A DNA stretch of 43,189 bases. Origin: a virus. Made by a program: the position numbers and the translations under genes. Positions 7,257 through 41,344 of this stretch are shown in pieces. Location: positions 1-43,189 of IMG/VR virus record IMGVR_UViG_3300007352_000158; one strand, written 5' to 3'. The notes beneath the pieces are model-generated. The model had not been told where the DNA came from. It was given only the letters and a program-made list of their open reading frames with translations, and searched no databases. Numbering within the stretch: the first letter of the stretch is position 1; every line of letters starts with the position of its first letter.

Positions 7257-8513
7257 TTATACAAAGTTGATCCAAGAAGATAATCTTAAATCAAATCCGG
7301 CACCTATTTGCGAACCACCGGCAACAGGAGTATAATCTAAAATTCCCGAATTTGCAAATAATGGTTCGCCAGAAATTGAACCTACAACATCAGTAAAATT
7401 AACTCTTGGAGTAACACAATTATAAACTAAGTTATTGTAACCATTTCCAAATATACCATTATCGTTTTGTGCTACTATACCGCTTATACAATTTATAACA
7501 GTATTGTTAATCAATACCGCTTGTCTAACCTGTGCATCATCTGATATGCGAATGCCAGTTTGAGTTATACCAGAACCGTCAACTAAACAATTAAACATCA
7601 TTAGACTCTTGTGATTAGTATCGTCATTTTGTCTAAATCCACCAAGTAAATCGCCTTTAGACAAACAATTAAAATAATGATTTCCTCCACCGCCATAAAA
7701 TCCTACGCCACTATTAGCAAGAGAAATACAATTTCCAAAGAAAGACATTTCTGTAGCTTCAAATCCATTTCCAGCATTATCATGAGAATAACAATCTATT
7801 ACAGTAGAATAATTGGGAACACCAAATGCTAATGTTCCTCCACAATGATCTACTTCGCAATGAACGAACATTGAAGGAAATGACGCAAAAGCAGTTCTAA
7901 ATCCTTGTCCAGTATATCTTGTTATTCTTATATTCTCATAAACCCAATAATTACTATTATTAACTAATACAATAGCATTGCTTTTTGTGTTGTTTGAATC
8001 CAATGTAGCGATACCGCTATCACCGGGAGTTGTTGAATATCCTATTAATCTAGGAAATGCATTTGCTAAATCGCCATTTGCAAGTATTGCACCATTTGCA
8101 GCAGCATTAACCATATCTATAGATTCGTCAAATGTTCCTTTACAGTAAAGCACATCTCCGGCACTTGCAGAGAATATTAATTTACTTAAAGTAGCAAATG
8201 CACCACCTATAGCCCAAGTAACACCAGAAGTTATGGAATTTGGTGCAGGAGAAACATTAACGGTGTCAAGACCGTCATCAACGGCAGTAATCTCAAATAT
8301 ATCACTACCATTTTTACCATCTGTTCTTGCATTAAGTCGTATAGTATCACCGATTACAACGGTTGATAAATCTGGCGTATCGACGCTCAAATCCACTGTA
8401 GCTCCTACAATAGTAGAAGCACCGGTGCCACTTGCTTTAGGAGTGGAAGAGGTTGTAGATCCACTATTAGTATTATCACCAACACCGCTTATAGCATACA
8501 TAGTTACAGACAT
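7257..8513 (-). CDS. Right-handed beta-helix virion protein, 418 aa
   Basis: Residues about 130-400 show the ladder of short V/I/N-rich rungs seen in parallel beta-helix (pectate-lyase-like) proteins, for example NYWVYENIRI, STVIDCYSHDNAGNGF and HYFNCLSKGDLLGG. The N-terminal 100 residues are Ser/Thr/Gly-rich and may form an attachment domain. Phage proteins of this fold are commonly tailspikes or capsid-surface fibres that bind or cleave glycans. No catalytic residues can be assigned by eye. GGAGAG lies seven bases upstream of the ATG. Confidence 0.75.
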   Translation of the reverse strand: MSVTMYAISGVGDNTNSGSTTSSTPKASGTGASTIVGATVDLSVDTPDLSTVVIGDTIRLNARTDGKNGSDIFEITAVDDGLDTVNVSPAPNSITSGVTWAIGGAFATLSKLIFSASAGDVLYCKGTFDESIDMVNAAANGAILANGDLANAFPRLIGYSTTPGDSGIATLDSNNTKSNAIVLVNNSNYWVYENIRITRYTGQGFRTAFASFPSMFVHCEVDHCGGTLAFGVPNYSTVIDCYSHDNAGNGFEATEMSFFGNCISLANSGVGFYGGGGNHYFNCLSKGDLLGGFRQNDDTNHKSLMMFNCLVDGSGITQTGIRISDDAQVRQAVLINNTVINCISGIVAQNDNGIFGNGYNNLVYNCVTPRVNFTDVVGSISGEPLFANSGILDYTPVAGGSQIGAGFDLRLSSWINFV

Positions 8514-8515
8514 TT

Positions 8516-10150
8516 CTACACTCTCCTAATATGACTATTATCTCTTGGTATTTTGCCGCTATTTATATTAACACTATTTTTAATAATAAATTTACCTTTA
8601 AATGTTTCTAAGTTGTCACCGGTCATTACAAAAATAAACTGATTCACTGTTTCTTGCAATGATGGTAAATTACTTGTTGACCACGCCCATCTTCCAGTAT
8701 CACCTATTTGATAGCATTCATCACTGATTAACGAAACCAAAGTATTTACACCACTTATAATATTATATATTTGAATACTTACTGTATTTGGATCTGTTAT
8801 AAATCTTCCTATTATTTGTGGACTATAATCCGATCTAGCAAATACTATATCTAAATTAAAACCAAAATCATCATCACCCAATTCAGACACCGGAAGACCA
8901 GAAACTGTTCCTTTAATAAATAGATTGGCATCATTATTTATAGTTTCTGGAACCATTAGGAATAATGTTAATTCATCTGTTAATAAACTATTACCGATTG
9001 TAAACAAATCTACACCGCTAGTAGAAACTATATGTCCATTCATAAAAGATACAATTGAATTATCAATAAATTCAGGAACTTTTAAGAAGGCGTTTAATGT
9101 ATCTGTTATAAAACTCGGATAAGGCAATACAAGGTTTATTTGATCGTTTAACGATTCATTTCCATGTATAAATAAATTCGTAAATATGATTTCTGGAGAT
9201 GTATATAAATCTAGTTGCTGCGGTCTAGAAGCTAATCCAGAAATTATGGTTGATTGATTGCTACCATCCAAATTTGATTTTTGTATTGTATCGGGAGTAA
9301 TTTCTACCCAATATATTTTATCGTTGTCTACATCAATGTCTAAACCAACGGGTGTTCCAATAGTATCAACCAATGTTTCTAACGAAGTTCCATCAAGATT
9401 ACATCTTCTTATTTTCTTTCCATCAGATTCTGCGAAATATATTTTATTATTTGTTAAATCTAAATCTATTCCTTCCGGATTATTTATACCACTAACAATA
9501 ACTTCTACATTAGAACCGTCTAAATTAGCTCTTTTAACCGAATCATTTGGATTAGTTGATTCTGTCCAATACACTTTATCATTGACATTATCTACAAATA
9601 CATCTTCTGGACCAGATAAACCAGAGGCAAAAATCTCTATATTAGATCCATTTGTATCACATCTTTTAATATTTCCAAGTGTAAAATCAACCCAATAAAT
9701 TTTATTGTTTATTATATCAACAAAAATGCCTTGTGGATCTGTAAGTCCAGAAGTAACAAGATCTATAACATTAGTTCCGTCGAGATTAGATCTTTGAATT
9801 TTATCTGTTCCGCGATCAATCCAATAAAGATAATTGTTATCTTGGTCTACATAAATACCCTGTGATATAGACAATCCGCTAACAATAATAGTTCTATCAG
9901 TACCATCTATTTTAATTCTTTCTATAACAGTAGAAAAAACATCTGTCCAATAGATATATTGTCCGGACAAAATAGTATTTTTATTAAAGGATATATGTCC
10001 ACCAACAAAAGTTTCTATGTTATCATTAATTAAGTCAAAACCATGTACAAATAAATTGCCAGATGTATTAATTCCAGAAGCTAATTGACTTTCTGATTGA
10101 AATGGGCCGATATCCATCTGGCCTAATTGAAATGGACCAATATCTATCAT
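8516..10150 (-). CDS. YWTD-type beta-propeller plus DLFI-repeat appendage protein, 544 aa
   Basis: After a duplicated N-terminal motif (DIGPFQLGQMDIGPFQ) and one or two DLFI-type units, about six YWTD repeats form one likely propeller (55-317): each carries NLDGSN-like and NNKIYWV-like strands spaced about 43 residues apart. Residues 320-413 hold more divergent LFI-type repeats. Residues 423-540 form a beta-sandwich domain shared with the 111-aa protein at 6912-7247. This is probably a virion adhesin, sharing modules with the 1580-aa protein downstream. YWTD repeats are best known from extracellular eukaryotic receptors; here the flanking phage genes show they belong to the phage. Confidence 0.8.
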   Translation of the reverse strand: MIDIGPFQLGQMDIGPFQSESQLASGINTSGNLFVHGFDLINDNIETFVGGHISFNKNTILSGQYIYWTDVFSTVIERIKIDGTDRTIIVSGLSISQGIYVDQDNNYLYWIDRGTDKIQRSNLDGTNVIDLVTSGLTDPQGIFVDIINNKIYWVDFTLGNIKRCDTNGSNIEIFASGLSGPEDVFVDNVNDKVYWTESTNPNDSVKRANLDGSNVEVIVSGINNPEGIDLDLTNNKIYFAESDGKKIRRCNLDGTSLETLVDTIGTPVGLDIDVDNDKIYWVEITPDTIQKSNLDGSNQSTIISGLASRPQQLDLYTSPEIIFTNLFIHGNESLNDQINLVLPYPSFITDTLNAFLKVPEFIDNSIVSFMNGHIVSTSGVDLFTIGNSLLTDELTLFLMVPETINNDANLFIKGTVSGLPVSELGDDDFGFNLDIVFARSDYSPQIIGRFITDPNTVSIQIYNIISGVNTLVSLISDECYQIGDTGRWAWSTSNLPSLQETVNQFIFVMTGDNLETFKGKFIIKNSVNINSGKIPRDNSHIRRV

Positions 10151-17940: not shown

Positions 17941-20055
17941 TTAAATTATGTCACCATTTTGTAATGCATTCTTTGTTTTAGTTGAACGCATCCATTCTTC
18001 GGCATTAGTGAAACCCGCTATACCCGGACCATGATATAGTGCCATATTTGGATCGAGATTTTTTACTTTCTTAAAATTACCGGCAACATTATTATAATCA
18101 ATGCCGCTTTCAGGAGTAACATCTACTGAATATATATATTTGTGTGCCAACAATAAACTCGTATATCTATCTTTTCTTAATCTTCCTTTTTTATATCTGC
18201 CTTCTACTATAGCTGAAGTTACACTTGTAGGAGTATCAAATCTTTCTTTGCCTGTAGTGGTTTCGGTTCTTTGTATTGTACATAATTCATTTTTAAGTTC
18301 TTCTATGTTATAGACACATTCTTCATAAGTATCACTATTAATATCTAACGATTTTTCTGCAATAAGTGCGGCTTGCATTATAACAGTATCGAATGCTGGA
18401 AATAAAAGCCTTTGTGTTTCTAAACTTTTATGAAGAATGCCATTAGCATAAGCGTTAAATTCATTAGATTGTTGAACTAGACTCAATATATGCGGACCAT
18501 CAGATTCGCCATCAAATTCTTTTATATTTTCTGGATCTACAACTTCATATATAGGAAACTCTCCCTTTTCCCCATCTAATCCTTTTTTAGTTCTTAACAT
18601 TTCAGAAATAGGATAGCCCCCACCTTGACTATCCATCTCTATCCTAATAGGATTAAACAAATTGACTAATACTCTTATTTTTGCACAGCAATAGGCATAA
18701 TAATCATGTTCTTTAGTAAATCCTTGTTTTTTACATTTATTAAATTCATCTTTATTAGTTGACCAACAATAAACTACTCTATAATGATTTTTCCACCCTT
18801 CTAAAATTGTTATAGCCAATCTATCCCTTTCTGCACCGGGATCTATCCCTATTACATATCTTCTACCTTTAATACCCCTCATCATTGGAGTAAAAGAAAC
18901 TTCTCCGTCTGGTGTAACGATATAACTAGAAGGTTTAATTGTGCATGATTCTATTAATGATCTTGGAAAATATCCATCCGAATCCTTTATGAATATTGCA
19001 TTGTATTCCATATCATATATATTTTTGGGTAAAGTAGCTTTTGCATGTGCCAATTGCCTTTTATCTAACAATCCATCTGGTAAATAATTGCTAGGTAATC
19101 TTATTAATGCATAATCATTTGGATCAAAATTATCTGGAATATTATTTTTACCACCAAATATTTCTGCTATTTTATCCATATCTCCCTTGCTCGATATAAT
19201 GTCTTTCCACATATCAAATTTTTTAGCAAAGTGATTAAATTGATAATAAGCTGTTCCAGAATATATAATCTGATTACCTTTTGGTTTTTTAACAAAATCA
19301 CCTTTTAAATTATTAGGAATACCAAGTTCTTCTATTTTCTTTTCTATAGCAAGTCTTCTTGCTTCATCTACAGGAGTTTTTGTTGTGGCCGTAAAACCTC
19401 TTACAACTACATCAAAAATATCTTCTGGGATTGATGCAAATTCATCTGCAATAATGCACGTTGCTCTAAATCCTCTTATTTTTGACCCATCACCCATTGG
19501 AAGAGCCTGTATAATTGATGGACCAATCTTAAAATAACACAAATCAACATTTTGTCTTGGTCCAGCATTCTTCCCGCCGCCAACTATACTTCTCAATACA
19601 GGAGCGGAATTCCATATATTTTCTATATAAGCAAAAACTAATTTAGCCTGTCTTAAACCCGCACCAACAATAACTATCTTAGCACCGGGGTCTAAAAGAG
19701 CCTTTAAAACAGCGTAGACGGCTAACGTAAAACTTTTACTTCCTCCACGAGATGCTATAAATAAAGGAAAAGGAGTTTTCCATAAAGTTTGCAAAACCGC
19801 TATCTGTATTGGAAATAAATCTAAGCCAAGAACAACTTTTGCAGTCCACCCTATATAGTCTATGTCCAGCATTTTATCTACTATAAATTGGTCAACTTTT
19901 TTCTTTGATATTTTTAGATCAGTAAATATATGTTTCGTTACTTTTGGCACCTTTTTCCTGTATGGAAACAAATAACCATAATAACCTTCGTCGGTGTTAA
20001 GAATATCGTGAAGTGCCAAAGACGATTCTTTATTTTTTAATTTTGCAATACCCAT
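17941..20055 (-). CDS. terL: Terminase large subunit, 704 aa
   Basis: The DNA-packaging motor ATPase and headful or site-specific nuclease. A Walker A-like SRGGSKS (102-108) and Walker B IIADE (201-205, with Glu after Asp) mark the ATPase half. VIGIDPGAERDRLAI (401-415) and IEMDSQGG (near 475-482) are RNase H-like nuclease motifs with acidic metal ligands. The length is greater than the usual 450-600 because of insertions between the two domains. The ATG overlaps the upstream ERCC4-type nuclease gene by 19 bases. It acts with the portal downstream and the small-subunit candidate upstream. Confidence 0.93.
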   Translation of the reverse strand: MGIAKLKNKESSLALHDILNTDEGYYGYLFPYRKKVPKVTKHIFTDLKISKKKVDQFIVDKMLDIDYIGWTAKVVLGLDLFPIQIAVLQTLWKTPFPLFIASRGGSKSFTLAVYAVLKALLDPGAKIVIVGAGLRQAKLVFAYIENIWNSAPVLRSIVGGGKNAGPRQNVDLCYFKIGPSIIQALPMGDGSKIRGFRATCIIADEFASIPEDIFDVVVRGFTATTKTPVDEARRLAIEKKIEELGIPNNLKGDFVKKPKGNQIIYSGTAYYQFNHFAKKFDMWKDIISSKGDMDKIAEIFGGKNNIPDNFDPNDYALIRLPSNYLPDGLLDKRQLAHAKATLPKNIYDMEYNAIFIKDSDGYFPRSLIESCTIKPSSYIVTPDGEVSFTPMMRGIKGRRYVIGIDPGAERDRLAITILEGWKNHYRVVYCWSTNKDEFNKCKKQGFTKEHDYYAYCCAKIRVLVNLFNPIRIEMDSQGGGYPISEMLRTKKGLDGEKGEFPIYEVVDPENIKEFDGESDGPHILSLVQQSNEFNAYANGILHKSLETQRLLFPAFDTVIMQAALIAEKSLDINSDTYEECVYNIEELKNELCTIQRTETTTGKERFDTPTSVTSAIVEGRYKKGRLRKDRYTSLLLAHKYIYSVDVTPESGIDYNNVAGNFKKVKNLDPNMALYHGPGIAGFTNAEEWMRSTKTKNALQNGDII

Positions 20056-37285: not shown

Positions 37286-37675
37286 TTATGCTTCATCCGA
37301 ACAAGCAGCAGCAAACTGTTGTGTTGAACCAAGTAGTACAATTGGTAGTTCTACTTCAACGACCGATCCCGGTGTGTTCACCGTAAGATCAAGGGTTAGA
37401 ATTACACCATTTTGTTCGTTATTTAGAGCTATAATTTGATCCATAGAAAGACCTTCATATGGATTTACATCGCCCTCTTTAACGGTAGTAAATACGGCAA
37501 GCTTTGTTAGTCCGGTTAGTGATGTACCGTCAGAATCTGTCGTAGGAAGTGTAAGGGAGCATACGTACTTTTCATCTTGACCGGGCGGTTGTGTTACGCT
37601 ATTAAAAGCTGGCGAACCCGGAGCTACCTCATCTACGCTTTGTGCTGTTGCGAACGTTACTGGACCAAAACCCAT
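37286..37675 (-). CDS. Hypothetical beta-rich protein, 129 aa
   Basis: The N-terminus is Pro/Gly-rich and the rest has Ig/fibronectin-like strands (KYVCSLTLPTTDSDGTSL, VILTLDLTVNTPGSVVEVEL). AAAGGAG gives an excellent ribosome site and a TATAAT box lies upstream. The monocistronic layout with its own promoter and strong terminator suggests high, separately controlled expression. It may be a virion or host-interaction protein; no family is recognised. Confidence 0.7.
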   Translation of the reverse strand: MGFGPVTFATAQSVDEVAPGSPAFNSVTQPPGQDEKYVCSLTLPTTDSDGTSLTGLTKLAVFTTVKEGDVNPYEGLSMDQIIALNNEQNGVILTLDLTVNTPGSVVEVELPIVLLGSTQQFAAACSDEA

Positions 37676-37724
37676 AATTTTTCTCCTTTAAAAGTTGTTT
37701 ACTTAAAACAAATCCGACTATTCT

Positions 37725-37730
37725 ATTATA
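37725..37730 (-). promoter_or_regulatory. Promoter (-10 TATAAT) for the 129-aa gene
   Basis: The minus strand reads GGGTATAATAG about 50 bases before the ATG. The hexamer 17 bases upstream (TGTATA) is a poor -35. The leader would be about 40 bases with AAAGGAG near its end. Confidence 0.5.
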
Positions 37731-37840
37731 CCCATTTGTTAATTAAATATACATTAAGTACCAGATTTTTTTGGTAACATTTTATAGATCAGCAAGCACT
37801 TCATTTTTTCGTTTATAAAATACCGGCACCCCATACGTTT

Positions 37841-37857
37841 GTTCCGCAAAGCGGAAC
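37841..37857. repeat. Inverted repeat GTTCCGC-AAA-GCGGAAC
   Basis: A perfect 7-bp inverted repeat with a 3-base loop at the left edge of the motif-rich segment. There is no T-run on either side, so not a terminator. It may be an operator or an RNA hairpin. The surrounding 37,760-38,180 contains no ORF, only copies of the TTATCGGAC-type motif. Confidence 0.6.
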
Positions 37858-38078
37858 GATGCATGACGCCCAAGATCAGTATTCTTTGATTCCAACTTCG
37901 GATGCATTTTAGAGTCTTGGTGCGCGTTAACCCCCAGCGTTTTTCGGACGGTCCTATAACTAAAACATTATCGGTATAAAACCGCCATACCCTTATCGGA
38001 CTTTCAATGATCTTATAACCATATCCATTTATCGGACTAACACATTACATTAACACTTTAACTAATTATAGGACTATT

Positions 38079-38097
38079 CTTTGGCTTGACGCCAAAG
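38079..38097. repeat. Inverted repeat CTTTGGC-TTGAC-GCCAAAG
   Basis: A perfect 7-bp inverted repeat whose loop contains TTGAC, between two copies of the TTATCGGAC-type motif. No T-run follows. It could be an operator or an RNA hairpin in the non-coding stretch before the first plus-strand gene. Confidence 0.55.
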
Positions 38098-38179
38098 GCT
38101 ATCGGACCATAACTTATCAGACCATACATACGCAACCTGGCATTACTTATAGGACTAATAAAATATTTTTCTTTTTTGT

Positions 38180-38208
38180 TTGCTTTTCCATCCGACCTAT
38201 CCTATACT
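38180..38208 (+). promoter_or_regulatory. Sigma70-like promoter before the plus-strand small genes
   Basis: TTGCTT, then a 17-base spacer, then TATACT (38203-38208). The spacing is ideal and the -10 good; the -35 is partial. It would drive the membrane microproteins and the genes that follow. Confidence 0.6.
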
Positions 38209-38229
38209 TTGGGTATCAAATGGGAGATA

Positions 38230-38361
38230 ATGAAAATGGAAACGACCTTGACAATCGGTGCTTTGGTGATTATCGGGCTCGCAATCGCAATGTTTAATAA
38301 CGCATTATCGGTCGCTGGAAATAGCTATGGCCGCAAACATATCGGACGAAGCCGACGATAG
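38230..38361 (+). CDS. Single-helix membrane protein, 43 aa
   Basis: GGGAG lies just before the ATGs at 38230 and 38236, so the start is one of these and not the upstream ATG at 38176. TLTIGALVIIGLAIAMF is a transmembrane helix, followed by a basic tail (GRKHIGRSRR). The gene contains three motif copies (TTATCGGGC, TTATCGGTC, ATATCGGAC). Confidence 0.65.
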   Translation: MKMETTLTIGALVIIGLAIAMFNNALSVAGNSYGRKHIGRSRR

Positions 38362-38371
38362 GAGTTATCGG

Positions 38372-38449
38372 ATGATCGCACTTATCGGACTAAGTATCCT
38401 CATGGTGGTTATCGGAGCCGCCCAATTATGGTGGATACTATCGGACTAA
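38372..38449 (+). CDS. Membrane microprotein, 25 aa
   Basis: AGGAG seven bases upstream of the ATG opens MIALIGLSILMVVIGAAQLW then WILSD. One transmembrane helix. Three copies of the TTATCGGAC-type motif lie within 78 bases and spell L-I-G, V-I-G and L-S-D, so the motif shapes much of this peptide. Confidence 0.55.
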   Translation: MIALIGLSILMVVIGAAQLWWILSD

Positions 38450-38461
38450 AGGGGTGCTTCA

Positions 38462-38767
38462 ATGCTGGTTAAAGAGGGAGACGTTATGGGACTCTTCGGC
38501 AGTACAGACAGTTATCGGGTCTTGCAGGTTGTGTCCGATAATGAGGTGTTGGGGTTCTGTGACTTATCGGGCCATACAACGATAATCAATATATCGGACG
38601 TGTTCGTGTGTGCGTCTTATAACGATGACGGTACGATAACCAAAGTCTACCATGATGGTATGATAATTGAAGAGACACTTGACGGCGATTATCGGACGCG
38701 ATGGGACAATGACAAGTTATCGAACCTCGACGAAATGATGGTTTTATTGGACTTTCTCGGAAGGTAA
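38462..38767 (+). CDS. Hypothetical protein, 101 aa
   Basis: A beta-rich protein (YRVLQVVSDNEVLGFCDLSG, TTIINISDVFVC, GTITKVYHDGMIIEET). AAGGGG supports the first ATG and GAGGGAG supports a second at 38486. It contains about eight motif copies in different frames. No family is recognised. Confidence 0.65.
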   Translation: MLVKEGDVMGLFGSTDSYRVLQVVSDNEVLGFCDLSGHTTIINISDVFVCASYNDDGTITKVYHDGMIIEETLDGDYRTRWDNDKLSNLDEMMVLLDFLGR

Positions 38768-38830
38768 CGAGACAAAGTTATCGGGCGTTCCGGTAACTAA
38801 ACTGGGGTACGTCTTATAAGGAGGTTAGTT

Positions 38831-39151
38831 ATGGCCCTTTCTTTCCGTCAAGCTATGATGAACAAATTGAAAAAACGGTCAACATTGAAGTATGGCTTGA
38901 GCAGGTCCGGTAAAATGTGGGTTGCAACCATTATCGGACCATTCCACCATAGGTTTTATGGGACTACGGCGATGGCAATGTCCGATACAAGAGCGGTAGA
39001 GAGATTGAAAGAGACTCTTTTATCGGACGGTTGGTTGGGTGGGATCACGTTTTCGGACGCTGACGAGCAGGATTCCGATAAAATCGCGGCAAGAAAAATG
39101 CCAAATTCGGACGTTCGAGCGGCTGAGGTTATCAGACAATCCTGGGAATAG
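38831..39151 (+). CDS. Hypothetical protein, 106 aa
   Basis: AAGGAGG nine bases upstream gives a very good ribosome site. The protein has a basic helix (RQAMMNKLKKRSTLKYG), a beta-hairpin-like region (MWVATIIGPFHHRFYG) and a helical end. Motif copies are present in both orientations. Function unknown; followed by a strong terminator. Confidence 0.65.
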   Translation: MALSFRQAMMNKLKKRSTLKYGLSRSGKMWVATIIGPFHHRFYGTTAMAMSDTRAVERLKETLLSDGWLGGITFSDADEQDSDKIAARKMPNSDVRAAEVIRQSWE

Positions 39152-39161
39152 CCGATAACAA

Positions 39162-39208
39162 AAAGATTATGGGACGGAGGGAAGCGCTGCCTTCGTCCTA
39201 TAATTTTT
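39162..39208. terminator. Long-stem terminator built from inverted TTAT-GGAC motifs
   Basis: ATTATGGGACGGAGG and CCTTCGTCCTATAAT pair over about 15 bp with two G-U pairs; further A/T pairs extend it, and TTTTT follows. It lies 10 bases after the 38831-39151 stop. The stem arms are themselves a motif copy (TTATGGGAC) and its reverse complement (GTCCTATAA). Confidence 0.8.
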
Positions 39209-39254
39209 GCGCCGGCGACACATTATCGGACCAGGCACTGCCGATAACATGAAG

Positions 39255-39286
39255 AATTATCGGACTGAAAAACGTCCGATAATTTT
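39255..39286. terminator. Second motif-built hairpin, terminator-like
   Basis: AATTATCGGAC and GTCCGATAATT form a perfect 11-bp stem with an 8-base A-rich loop, followed by a short T-run. The arms are TTATCGGAC and its exact complement. It is either a second terminator or a cruciform/protein-binding palindrome. Confidence 0.65.
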
Positions 39287-39362
39287 ACACACTACAGCAC
39301 TGCGGTTATCGGACGTTGAATTATTGAGTTTATAGGACGTGAAAAAATTTTTATTATAGGGC

Positions 39363-39391
39363 TTGACAATCCTGGTTTTCTATCATAGAAT
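39363..39391 (+). promoter_or_regulatory. Sigma70-like promoter P1 (TTGACA-17-TAGAAT)
   Basis: A consensus -35 TTGACA, 17-base spacer and TAGAAT -10. First of three similar promoters in 350 bases upstream of the GC-rich gene at 39854. Confidence 0.8.
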
Positions 39392-39608
39392 ATATCAGAC
39401 AATCAAAAAAGTAGGACGACGCGGGCAGGTTCCGATAAGGCACTGCGAGCGGGCGAACCCTGCGCACTTTTTATTATTACCGGACCAAAAAGAAAATTAC
39501 TATAGGACTTTGTTTTTATAGGACAATGCCAATAATATCTTATTTTAATCACAACCAGATCTAATATTATAGGATGATACCAATAATAAAAAAAACTTGG
39601 TCAATAGG

Positions 39609-39637
39609 TTGACTTCACCTTGATACGCGCCTAGAAT
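39609..39637 (+). promoter_or_regulatory. Sigma70-like promoter P2 (TTGACT-17-TAGAAT)
   Basis: TTGACT, 17-base spacer, TAGAAT. Same spacing as P1 and P3. It lies in non-coding DNA between the terminators and the 39854 gene. Confidence 0.75.
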
Positions 39638-39679
39638 CAGTGTATCGCGGGGAAAAAAAGAAAAAAGCGAAAAAATCGC

Positions 39680-39708
39680 TTGACTTCCCGCGAAAAGCGC
39701 AGTATACT
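39680..39708 (+). promoter_or_regulatory. Sigma70-like promoter P3 (TTGACT-17-TATACT)
   Basis: TTGACT, 17-base spacer, TATACT. The nearest promoter to the 39854 gene; transcription would start near 39,715 and give a leader of about 140 bases. Confidence 0.82.
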
Positions 39709-39724
39709 TAGATAGTCAATTCAA

Positions 39725-39855
39725 GGTATCCTATCGTGCAATGCGATACCCGTAAAGGCGGAAGTTATCAGACATAACGACTTGCAAGCGCCATCCTGAT
39801 TATAGGATGGTCCTGTGGTCGGGATGGTGTAGGTTCTACTATAGGAGTCTCCTAT
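39725..39855 (+). promoter_or_regulatory. Structured 5' leader with Shine-Dalgarno/start-codon hairpin
   Basis: Four hairpins follow one another: GGTATC/GATACC (39725-39750), GTTAT/ATAAC, CCATCCT/AGGATGG (39791-39810, perfect 7 bp), and ATAGGA-GTC-TCCTAT (39841-39855), which pairs the AGGAG ribosome site with bases that include the A and T of the ATG at 39854. This could control translation of the next gene. No known riboswitch class is recognised. Confidence 0.55.
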
Positions 39856-40168
39856 GAGCACCACCACCACCCAGCCGAAGTCGGGATCGGTCAACGTCCA
39901 GGAGTTGTTCTTGCGGACAGGCCCTCGGTACAAGGCGAACAGGAAGTTCGTCGAGGCTATCCTGTCGGTCAAGAATCCTCAACAGGCGATGTTGGACGCG
40001 CAAGAGGTCATCGACAGTCTCAAGTTGCTGGCCGCGCACGGCGAGGGTTATACCCCTCCGTCGAATCTCGATTTCGGTTCCGATAACGCGGCTACCATCG
40101 CGTTGGCGGTTCTCGGACAGCGTGCATCGACCGCGAGTATTCGGTCGAAGTTTGCGAAGATCGCGTAG
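39854..40168 (+). CDS. GC-rich hypothetical protein, 104 aa
   Basis: The protein starts MSTTTTQPKSGSVNVQELFL and is mostly helical and soluble (AMLDAQEVIDSLKLLAAHGE). AGGAG precedes the ATG. Base composition and codon use are distinctly GC-rich compared with the rest of the window, and three strong promoters lie upstream, so it may be a highly expressed early protein of different origin. The motif is scarce inside this gene (one variant, TTCCGATAA). Function unknown. Frames on the opposite strand look like shadows. Confidence 0.7.
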   Translation: MSTTTTQPKSGSVNVQELFLRTGPRYKANRKFVEAILSVKNPQQAMLDAQEVIDSLKLLAAHGEGYTPPSNLDFGSDNAATIALAVLGQRASTASIRSKFAKIA

Positions 40169-40169
40169 T

Positions 40170-41239
40170 CCGATCATGGCGCTTAGTCTTATAGCGTTTT
40201 ACGGTATCGCTTGAATAACCGTTATCTCCTTATCGGTGTCAGCCGAGATGCGTCCTATATTGGATAGGTACGTATGCCTAAACCTCTGGGTTATAGGACG
40301 TGTCTCGCCTTACATCGAGAGTCCAGATAACTTCTGGAATTATAGGGCTACCATAAGCTAGTCCCTGTCGGTGTCTGGAAGGGCTCAACGTCCGAGTAGC
40401 GGGTGTCCGATTAGTTATCGGGCTGACCGCTGAAGAGAGGGTAGGTCCAATAATGCTCCTGATCCGTATGTAGGGTCTGGTTGGGCGCGGGGATCGCGCT
40501 CAGGGTCTGAGGGTCAGTCAAGGTTATCGGTCTGAAGTCCCACTTCATGCCTATCAGTACGTTAGGTTATCGACCGTCTTTGATTATGGGACGAAGTGCG
40601 CTAATACCGATTATCGGTCTTGGTTACGTCTTGGATAGCGCCTTGATAGGGAGTCAAGAATGTAATCAAGAAAAAACCTAATCGGGAAAGAGTGTAAGGA
40701 AGTCTTATAATCTGAGAGTCATAATGATGGTTGCATAATGTGGCTAAACGCCGATTCGTCGGTAGTTCCACGGTTATTATGCGACCTTATTTGTCTCTAG
40801 TCGGGCCGAAAATCGCGCGAGTGATATTCCATCTCCAATAGTCCACAATTAAACTATTGCGCCACAATTCGAGGAATGTTCTTATCGGGTCGGCTACGAT
40901 CTTATCAGTCGTAGCTTGGTCGTTATTCTTCGATAGCGGAATTGGTTATTATGGGCTGGGGATGCGGCGTCAAGGTTCAATAATCCTGGTGGTTATTGGG
41001 TCTTGAAGTGCTGGTACGATAAATGTAGCGCGGGACAGCAAAGATAGATATGGTCCGAGTTCGCACTGCGAGTCCGATAGTTTTATGGATTCGCTTTGTG
41101 TGTTTCGGCTTGCTATGCTCAAGTCATGTTTATCTTTCGGGATGCTCTGTCTTTAATGAACCTTGATATTGACACTATTCGGTCCAGCAAAAGGGATCGT
41201 TAGTGCCATAGTTCTAGAGTAGCGCCCTAAAATAGCGCT
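40170..41239. other. About 1 kb without a gene, rich in the TTATCGG-type motif
   Basis: No frame here has both convincing length and a ribosome site. It contains about fifteen motif variants and several hairpins, for example GCTACGA/TCGTAGC (40893-40915), with TTATCAG in the loop, and CCGA-TTCG-TCGG near 40,750. It could hold structured RNA, a replication or packaging region, or a control region. I see no tRNA in it. Confidence 0.6.
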
Positions 41240-41344
41240 TAACCTGTGAGGTGTGAAGTTGGGCATATCGCTTGCCTCTGTAGACAAACGAAAGTTTGTT
41301 TTTATAAGCGGCGAAGGTTCGGGTTCGACTCCCGAAATAGGTTA
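41240..41344 (+). ncRNA. tRNA-like structure with an enlarged anticodon arm
   Basis: A perfect T-arm (TCGGG-TTCGACT-CCCGA, 41319-41335) is followed by TAGGTTA, which pairs with TAACCTG at 41240-41246. GGTGT/ATATC makes a D-arm-like stem with loop GAAGTTGGGC. CGCTT (41269-41273) pairs with AAGCG (41306-41310), but encloses 32 bases instead of 7, including hairpin ACAAAC-GAAA-GTTTGT. The coaxial stack would be 13 rather than 12 bp if the T-stem is 6 bp. It may be a degenerate or interrupted tRNA, or a tRNA mimic before the 51-aa gene. Confidence 0.4.

Follow-up and report, generated by a model that had tools for sequence, protein, structure and literature searches.

What does a single short word do when it is repeated dozens of times within a few kilobases of a viral genome? 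The window that we analyzed is the whole 43,189 nucleotides of virus record IMGVR_UViG_3300007352_000158 (IMG/VR; 32.6% GC), and a degenerate 9-mer fills a field near one end of it, in a region of about 45% GC. We find that this field is a real, selected, and recurrent element. Tentatively, and with rather less than an even chance of being right, we favor an array in which one putative protein would bind asymmetric double-stranded DNA sites (TTAT-N-GGAC), coating and controlling an early hub of the phage.

An asymmetric 9-mer fills a dense field

A first-pass annotation, made from the letters of the window alone, had described the field. Its nine plus-strand and two minus-strand copies of the exact word TTATCGGAC in about 1.3 kb were recovered at the same positions, all inside 37993-39314 (Table 1). 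It had also counted at least 22 copies with C, A, or G at position 5; we found 22 copies of TTAT[CAG]GGAC between 37951 and 40592 (2.6 kb). These three bases do prevail at position 5 (C 62, A 19, G 14%), but T occurs as well (5%) and the position is essentially free. The site is TTATNGGAC, an asymmetric 9-mer. The window holds 26 copies of it against 1.6 expected from dinucleotide shuffles (0 of 100 shuffles reached 26), and 24 of the 26 lie within the same 2.6 kb. Allowing one mismatch to TTATCGGAC gave 63 copies against 8.1 expected (shuffle maximum, 13), with 55 in 37941-41080 and 8 in the remainder of the window. With position 5 free, the one-mismatch count was 65; the earlier estimate of 50 to 65 copies agrees with these figures.

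One-mismatch sites stand at about 22 to 40 per kb in the field proper, in coding and noncoding stretches alike. Their density drops to 6 per kb in the open reading frame (ORF) 39839-40168. It is 13 per kb, with the strands equal, in 40169-41270, a stretch that we assign to a structured RNA gene. The extent first given for the field, 37930-41100, therefore holds up to 39840, and its right part (40.17-41.27 kb) belongs to the RNA. The sense strand is favored by the TTATNGGAC copies of the window (20:6).

The core of the site is under selection

The field recurs, at 83% identity, in the closest relative, L007. Between the window and this relative, the eight core positions of the site were about 96% conserved, as compared to 73 to 78% for position 5 and about 86% for the flanks. 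Judged from this alignment, the eight core positions are under selection and position 5 is drifting. Across 23 field ORFs, 71 exact sites were present, a sevenfold excess over codon-preserving shuffles (9.8 ± 3.1; maximum 18 in 200 shuffles), and the sense sites occupied all three reading frames. Such shuffles had been suggested in the first-pass annotation as a check, as had a comparison with close relatives; the shuffles failed to reproduce the site counts, and the field is kept in L007 and in the rest of its family. Because an extra small gene of L007 (about 8340-8560) is likewise full of sites, site density rather than site position seems to be kept.

The spacing of the sites is irregular, as had been noted, but it is not random. 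On the same strand, distances below 14 were almost absent, and the classes 14-19, 23-27, and 33-36 were preferred (against uniform distances, p = 0.0005 in the window's own family and 0.017 in other lineages). Irregular spacing and unrelated flanks bear out the earlier view that the field is neither an iteron array nor a CRISPR. We read the spacing as the binding of a putative protein to double-stranded DNA with contacts between neighbors. Helical phasing of the sites is suggestive only.

Each genome of the family carries one field

We call group A the field-bearing records that share the terminase of the window (17941-20055, minus strand) at 60 to 87% identity. There are 14 of them besides the window, and the near-full-length genomes measure 160 to 181 kb. 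Remote similarity (22-26%) links the window terminase to its counterparts in SPbeta-like Bacillus phages and in Microcystis phage MaeS. Every near-full-length group A genome has one field of about 20 to 28 exact sites, with chance level elsewhere. Counting in four group A genomes gave 25 to 28 sites in the field, where about 0.1 to 0.2 were expected, and 6 to 7 in the rest of the genome, where 5 to 7 were expected. We also performed a motif-blind test, retrieving group A records by the terminase alone. G036 and G037 (166-168 kb) each carried a field with about 20 sites; in G034 and G035 the contig starts inside the field. The fragments G038-G042 had no field, and G043 had a weak cluster.

The sites of group A are mainly on the coding strand (55:5 in L092), and the earlier remark that plus orientation dominates is true within this family. 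They run with transcription, and their density falls at the ORF behind three sigma70-type promoter matches of the window (39363, 39609, and 39680), which precede both the FGSDNAAT gene and the structured RNA. Unusually many contigs end close to the field's RNA side or within the field (G006, G009, G010, G036, G003, window; G034, G035, G031), either by an assembly break or at a real genome end.

Unrelated phages share the word

Scanning IMG/VR with a triple-site pattern, we obtained 107 matching stretches. The reversed motif gave at least 120, so the raw count of 107 alone is not evidence, and copies with independent flanks were counted per locus instead. Among 106 motif loci, 41 had at least 8 independent copies and 17 had at least 20, while no locus of the reversed-motif control had 8 among the matches listed. 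The control matches were in-frame coding repeats, with 95% of spacings divisible by 3 as compared to 33% for the motif. In many viral contigs, the reversed word CAGGNTATT (L437 onward) makes up in-frame coding repeats whose spacings are multiples of 9, much as collagen-like repeats would. TTATNGGAC was chosen beforehand as the search word, and other words may have fields too.

Irregular fields of the same word recurred in no fewer than four phage lineages whose terminases are unrelated and whose GC contents span 0.33 to 0.65. Outside group A, the terminases were Yuavirus-like in group B (53%), Autographiviridae-like in L055 (34%), and podovirus/actinophage-like in L017 (26%). The core was the same and nearly invariant in the per-lineage profiles, exact sites making up 112 of 131 one-mismatch sites in group B and 323 of 756 in group A. 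The field in group B and others is often noncoding, 0.4 to 1.2 kb long, and in both orientations; some lineages have short noncoding arrays of 14 to 20 sites in 0.4 to 0.8 kb. Orientation is mixed in L061, L055, L112, and L025 and does not follow transcription, and one gene of L112 carries its sites antisense. In the 50 kb examined, the cultured phages Yuavirus YuA and Sphaerotilus SN1 had no field and Microcystis MaeS had two scattered sites. A literature search for the word gave only chance or primer matches among the pages listed.

That several lineages independently reached one 8-base word would need a putative common recognizer. A more than 100-fold excess of the word at one place, among phages whose packaging genes are unrelated and whose GC ranges from 33 to 65%, implies that this recognizer works across many hosts. 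It would be either a widespread host factor exploited by phages or a phage control system that is mobile. Uncultured phages could then be given a simple sequence signature of their early or origin regions. Coding sequence bent to hold sites is of interest in itself, as is the new large RNA gene adjoining the field.

The first-pass annotation had left several options side by side. A DNA-level array of protein sites is favored, given the mixed orientation and the antisense position of the same sites in unrelated phages. Packaging sites are unlikely because the motif is common to phages of at least four unrelated terminase lineages, and a packaging or terminal signal was rejected on this ground. 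An RNA-level signal, in which an RNA-binding protein or a small RNA recognizes UUAUNGGAC on early transcripts, would account for the strong sense bias of group A in coding and noncoding stretches alike, and a large structured RNA does adjoin the field. We nevertheless disfavor it and think it quite improbable, because unrelated phages have mixed-orientation sites and sites antisense to genes. In addition, the E. coli rrn operon has its one-mismatch matches outside mature rRNA, and a search for rRNA complementarity gave no useful match. CsrA/RsmA sponge RNAs carry an ANGGA core in the loops of RNA hairpins, on the sense strand only. The core here is TNGGA, and L112 has sites antisense to genes, which does not fit such a sponge. 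The -10 element of FliA/sigma28 was rejected too: GCCGATAA resembles the reverse complement GTCCGATAA, but the flank profile has no TAAA at the right distance.

The surveyed cellular genomes show no clear excess of the word

A recognizer common to so many phages could be a conserved host DNA-binding protein that the phage titrates or concentrates on its early region. The identity of the 9-mer despite unrelated terminases and a wide range of GC would suit such a sponge or recruiter, as would the conservation of density and not position. No shared phage-encoded binder was found, so the recognizer may be cellular and widespread. But no protein is known with such a target, and titration leaves the strand bias of group A unexplained. 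Moreover, 548 genomes (349 Pseudomonadota and 199 Planctomycetota) showed no clear genome-wide excess of TTATCGGAC. In GTDB, the triple-site pattern gave at least 117 rows, and the clusters among the matches listed proved to be tandem repeats in which one to five flanks were independent. Measured against the reversed control, the Planctomycetota G557, G556, and G432 seemed to have a true genome-wide excess, but it was at most twofold above third-order Markov expectation and was rejected. We consider a sponge or recruiter unlikely, although it is a serious rival to an operator- or stoperator-like coat. A wider version strikes us as possible, if on balance doubtful: the element may be one not described before, a TTATNGGAC field for one widely conserved, probably cellular, DNA-binding protein that many unrelated tailed phages recruit or titrate at an early or origin hub, where even coding sequence would carry the site density.

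The word could also be a strand-oriented cellular signal carried on the phage, namely a DNA uptake sequence or a Chi-like nuclease signal, which are likewise short, asymmetric, and strand-biased. Inverted pairs of uptake sequences form hairpins at gene ends, and an inverted site pair in the window forms a hairpin at a gene end (Table 1). A regular-expression scan found no motif-built terminators, its pattern being too strict. However, the field is local, the rest of the group A genomes is at chance level, and the 548 bacterial genomes showed no clear genome-wide excess; we hold such a signal to be very improbable.

The field starts where transcription diverges

The field starts at a divergence of transcription and covers early-type small genes. 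Its upstream edge also falls at the minimum of the cumulative GC skew in the window, G008 (49,883 against 50,043), G009, G010, and the unrelated G019, and the skew maximum lies about half a genome from the minimum in near-complete genomes. This location raised the question of an origin or partition hub. At such a hub the sites would serve to load an initiator of replication or a protein of the centromere type. A large nucleoprotein complex would form on the one array, as it does on other viral maintenance arrays, and the early genes would merely be co-located. One main field per genome, the tolerance of both orientations in several lineages, and the short noncoding arrays are consistent with such a hub. 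GC skew, however, tracks gene strand (skew is positive over the plus-strand genes at 22.8-28.2 kb of the window). What the minimum marks is therefore a divergence of transcription, which need not be an origin, and we withdrew the skew as proof of one. A one-sided, strand-biased array of 3 to 5 kb would also be unusual for an origin.

Like DnaA boxes (TTATNCACA) and iteron origins, the field consists of a 9-mer with a TTAT-C/N 5′ half, clustered at the divergence point. Unlike them, it has GGAC and not CACA as the 3′ half and lacks iteron regularity. A DnaA-type initiator was rejected: none of 34 records encoded a Bac_DnaA_C protein (PF08299; controls matched), and the group A fields contained 0 copies of TTATNCACA, which leaves DnaA-box sites unsupported. 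An origin or partition hub is a serious rival to the protein coat, but in our judgment an improbable one.

A protein coat on the early region is the favored explanation

We favor a coat in which the array would sit at an early hub, from which transcription departs both leftward and rightward and where small genes lie behind host-type promoters. Many sites at the preferred spacings might be occupied together, so that the protein would coat 2 to 5 kb of the early region and control its use. The likeliest role, by conjecture, would be that transcription is blocked or silenced in the fashion of stoperators, which would turn the early genes off or restrain them. Just downstream, silencing would spare the strongly promoted small gene and the structured RNA.

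Stoperators of cluster A mycobacteriophages (L5, TipsytheTRex) are 13 to 14 bp long, spread genome-wide, and lie mainly in short intergenic spaces; they vary between phage groups along with the repressor and are bound without cooperativity (PMC9283540, PMC6550527). The field resembles them in its asymmetric sites, 20 to 30 copies per genome, variable central position, main orientation relative to transcription (group A), and cover of early-transcribed genes. It differs in that its 20 to 60 sites are 9 bp long, crowd a single field of 2-5 kb, and are no sparser within genes than outside them. Moreover, unrelated phages use the same word, the orientation of the sites is mixed in several lineages, and a repressor was not found. 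The field thus has the asymmetric site in at least 20 copies per genome, but not the mainly intergenic spread over the genome. We do not file it under stoperators because it is clustered in a single field and equally dense in ORFs.

Several observations weigh against the coat. All-against-all BLAST and profile search found no DNA-binding protein common to the field phages; the genes that they do share are only generic (a dGTPase-like N-terminal protein, ERCC4 nuclease, AAA ATPases, radical SAM and HNH proteins, and a 62-aa protein). If the repressor were specific to a lineage, its motif should be so too, yet unrelated phages share the word. The equal density of sites within and between genes is unlike classical operators, several lineages show no orientation bias, and the spacing periodicity of group A is nearer 9 than 10.5 bp.

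Table 1. Features of the field and its neighborhood in the window
Feature	Position	Strand	Remarks
TTATNGGAC field proper	37930..39840	+	exact sites and many one-base variants; conserved in relative L007
Exact TTATCGGAC sites (n = 9)	37993, 38029, 38382, 38689, 38931, 39020, 39223, 39257, 39306	+	
Exact TTATCGGAC sites (n = 2)	38533, 39274	-	
Exact TTATNGGAC sites, field proper	37993, 38029, 38066, 38147, 38382, 38484, 38689, 38744, 38931, 38956, 39020, 39167, 39223, 39257, 39306, 39330, 39516	+	
Exact TTATNGGAC sites, field proper	37951, 38533, 39195, 39274	-	
Inverted site pair, hairpin ATTATCGGAC-TGAAAAAC-GTCCGATAAT	39256..39283	+	downstream of ORF 38831-39151; kept in L007
Divergence region, leftward gene 37286-37675 (-) versus rightward genes	37700..38229		left field edge; cumulative GC skew minimum 38206
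Small ORF, 43 aa, inside field	38230..38361	+	one hydrophobic stretch (from sequence)
ORF, 101 aa, inside field	38462..38767	+	three exact sense sites, one antisense
ORF, 106 aa	38831..39151	+	in 13 field-bearing contigs; AlphaFold model alpha-beta-beta-beta-alpha
Sigma70-type promoter match TTGACA-17-TAGAAT	39363..39391	+	
Sigma70-type promoter match TTGACT-17-TAGAAT	39609..39637	+	
Sigma70-type promoter match TTGACT-17-TATACT	39680..39708	+	ahead of 39854 gene and structured RNA
FGSDNAAT gene, 104 aa	39854..40168	+	helical, no known family; marks downstream field end in group A
Large structured noncoding RNA (candidate)	40169..41270	+	no Rfam match; few TTATNGG copies, both strands, partly in helices
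tRNA-like element	41238..41343	+	pairing ends AACCTGT/ATAGGTT and T-arm-like stem; adjoins structured RNA; not called by ARAGORN

A large structured RNA and small orphan genes adjoin the field

Downstream of the field, folding of 40169-41168 gave z = -8.7, as compared to -2.6 for the field. Between the window and L007, 16 pairs had changed on both sides and were still paired, where the null mean was 2.3 (maximum 6). Five other group A phages showed double changes in 36 of 114 predicted pairs. Equivalents of about 0.7 to 1.1 kb were present in L007 (10316-11420), L035, L092, L086, L107, L111, and L082, downstream of a conserved small gene and with tRNAs nearby. From these sequence comparisons, 40169-41270 is a candidate for a new large phage RNA. 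GOLLD and ROOL are very large structured phage RNAs near tRNA genes (PMC12286853), and the candidate is like them in size, structure, and location. It is unlike them in being conserved behind a specific protein gene and in having no match to Rfam covariance models, GOLLD and ROOL included, in the window or six relatives even at permissive E-values. The tRNA-like element next to it has an odd anticodon region that is completely different in L007.

The 106-aa protein model has a predicted local distance difference test (pLDDT) score of 70, and its non-significant matches were ribosomal and double-stranded RNA-binding folds and a putative antitoxin. The FGSDNAAT protein model is helical (pLDDT 86), and the protein had no PDB, Pfam, or convincing PHROG match. 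Scanning with it gave 14 loci, 13 in contigs already known to bear the field and one in G036. It is an orphan family confined to group A phages, always adjoining the field.

Some other proteins of these phages were noticed on the way. The large terminase subunits of G009, G010, G013, G030, and G031 carry, after residue ~190-205, an insertion of about 400 aa that resembles an intein. A BrxL-like Lon/AAA protein is encoded at 107406-108860 of G008, with orthologues in G006, G009, and G010; other BREX genes were not noticed, and proteins with sigma70 region 4 and region 2 were also seen. A protein of 62 to 82 aa with TRVS...GKTF/GKTIK motifs in G006, G008, G009, G010, G012, and G024 recalls, as an impression and with no Pfam match, a short histone fold.

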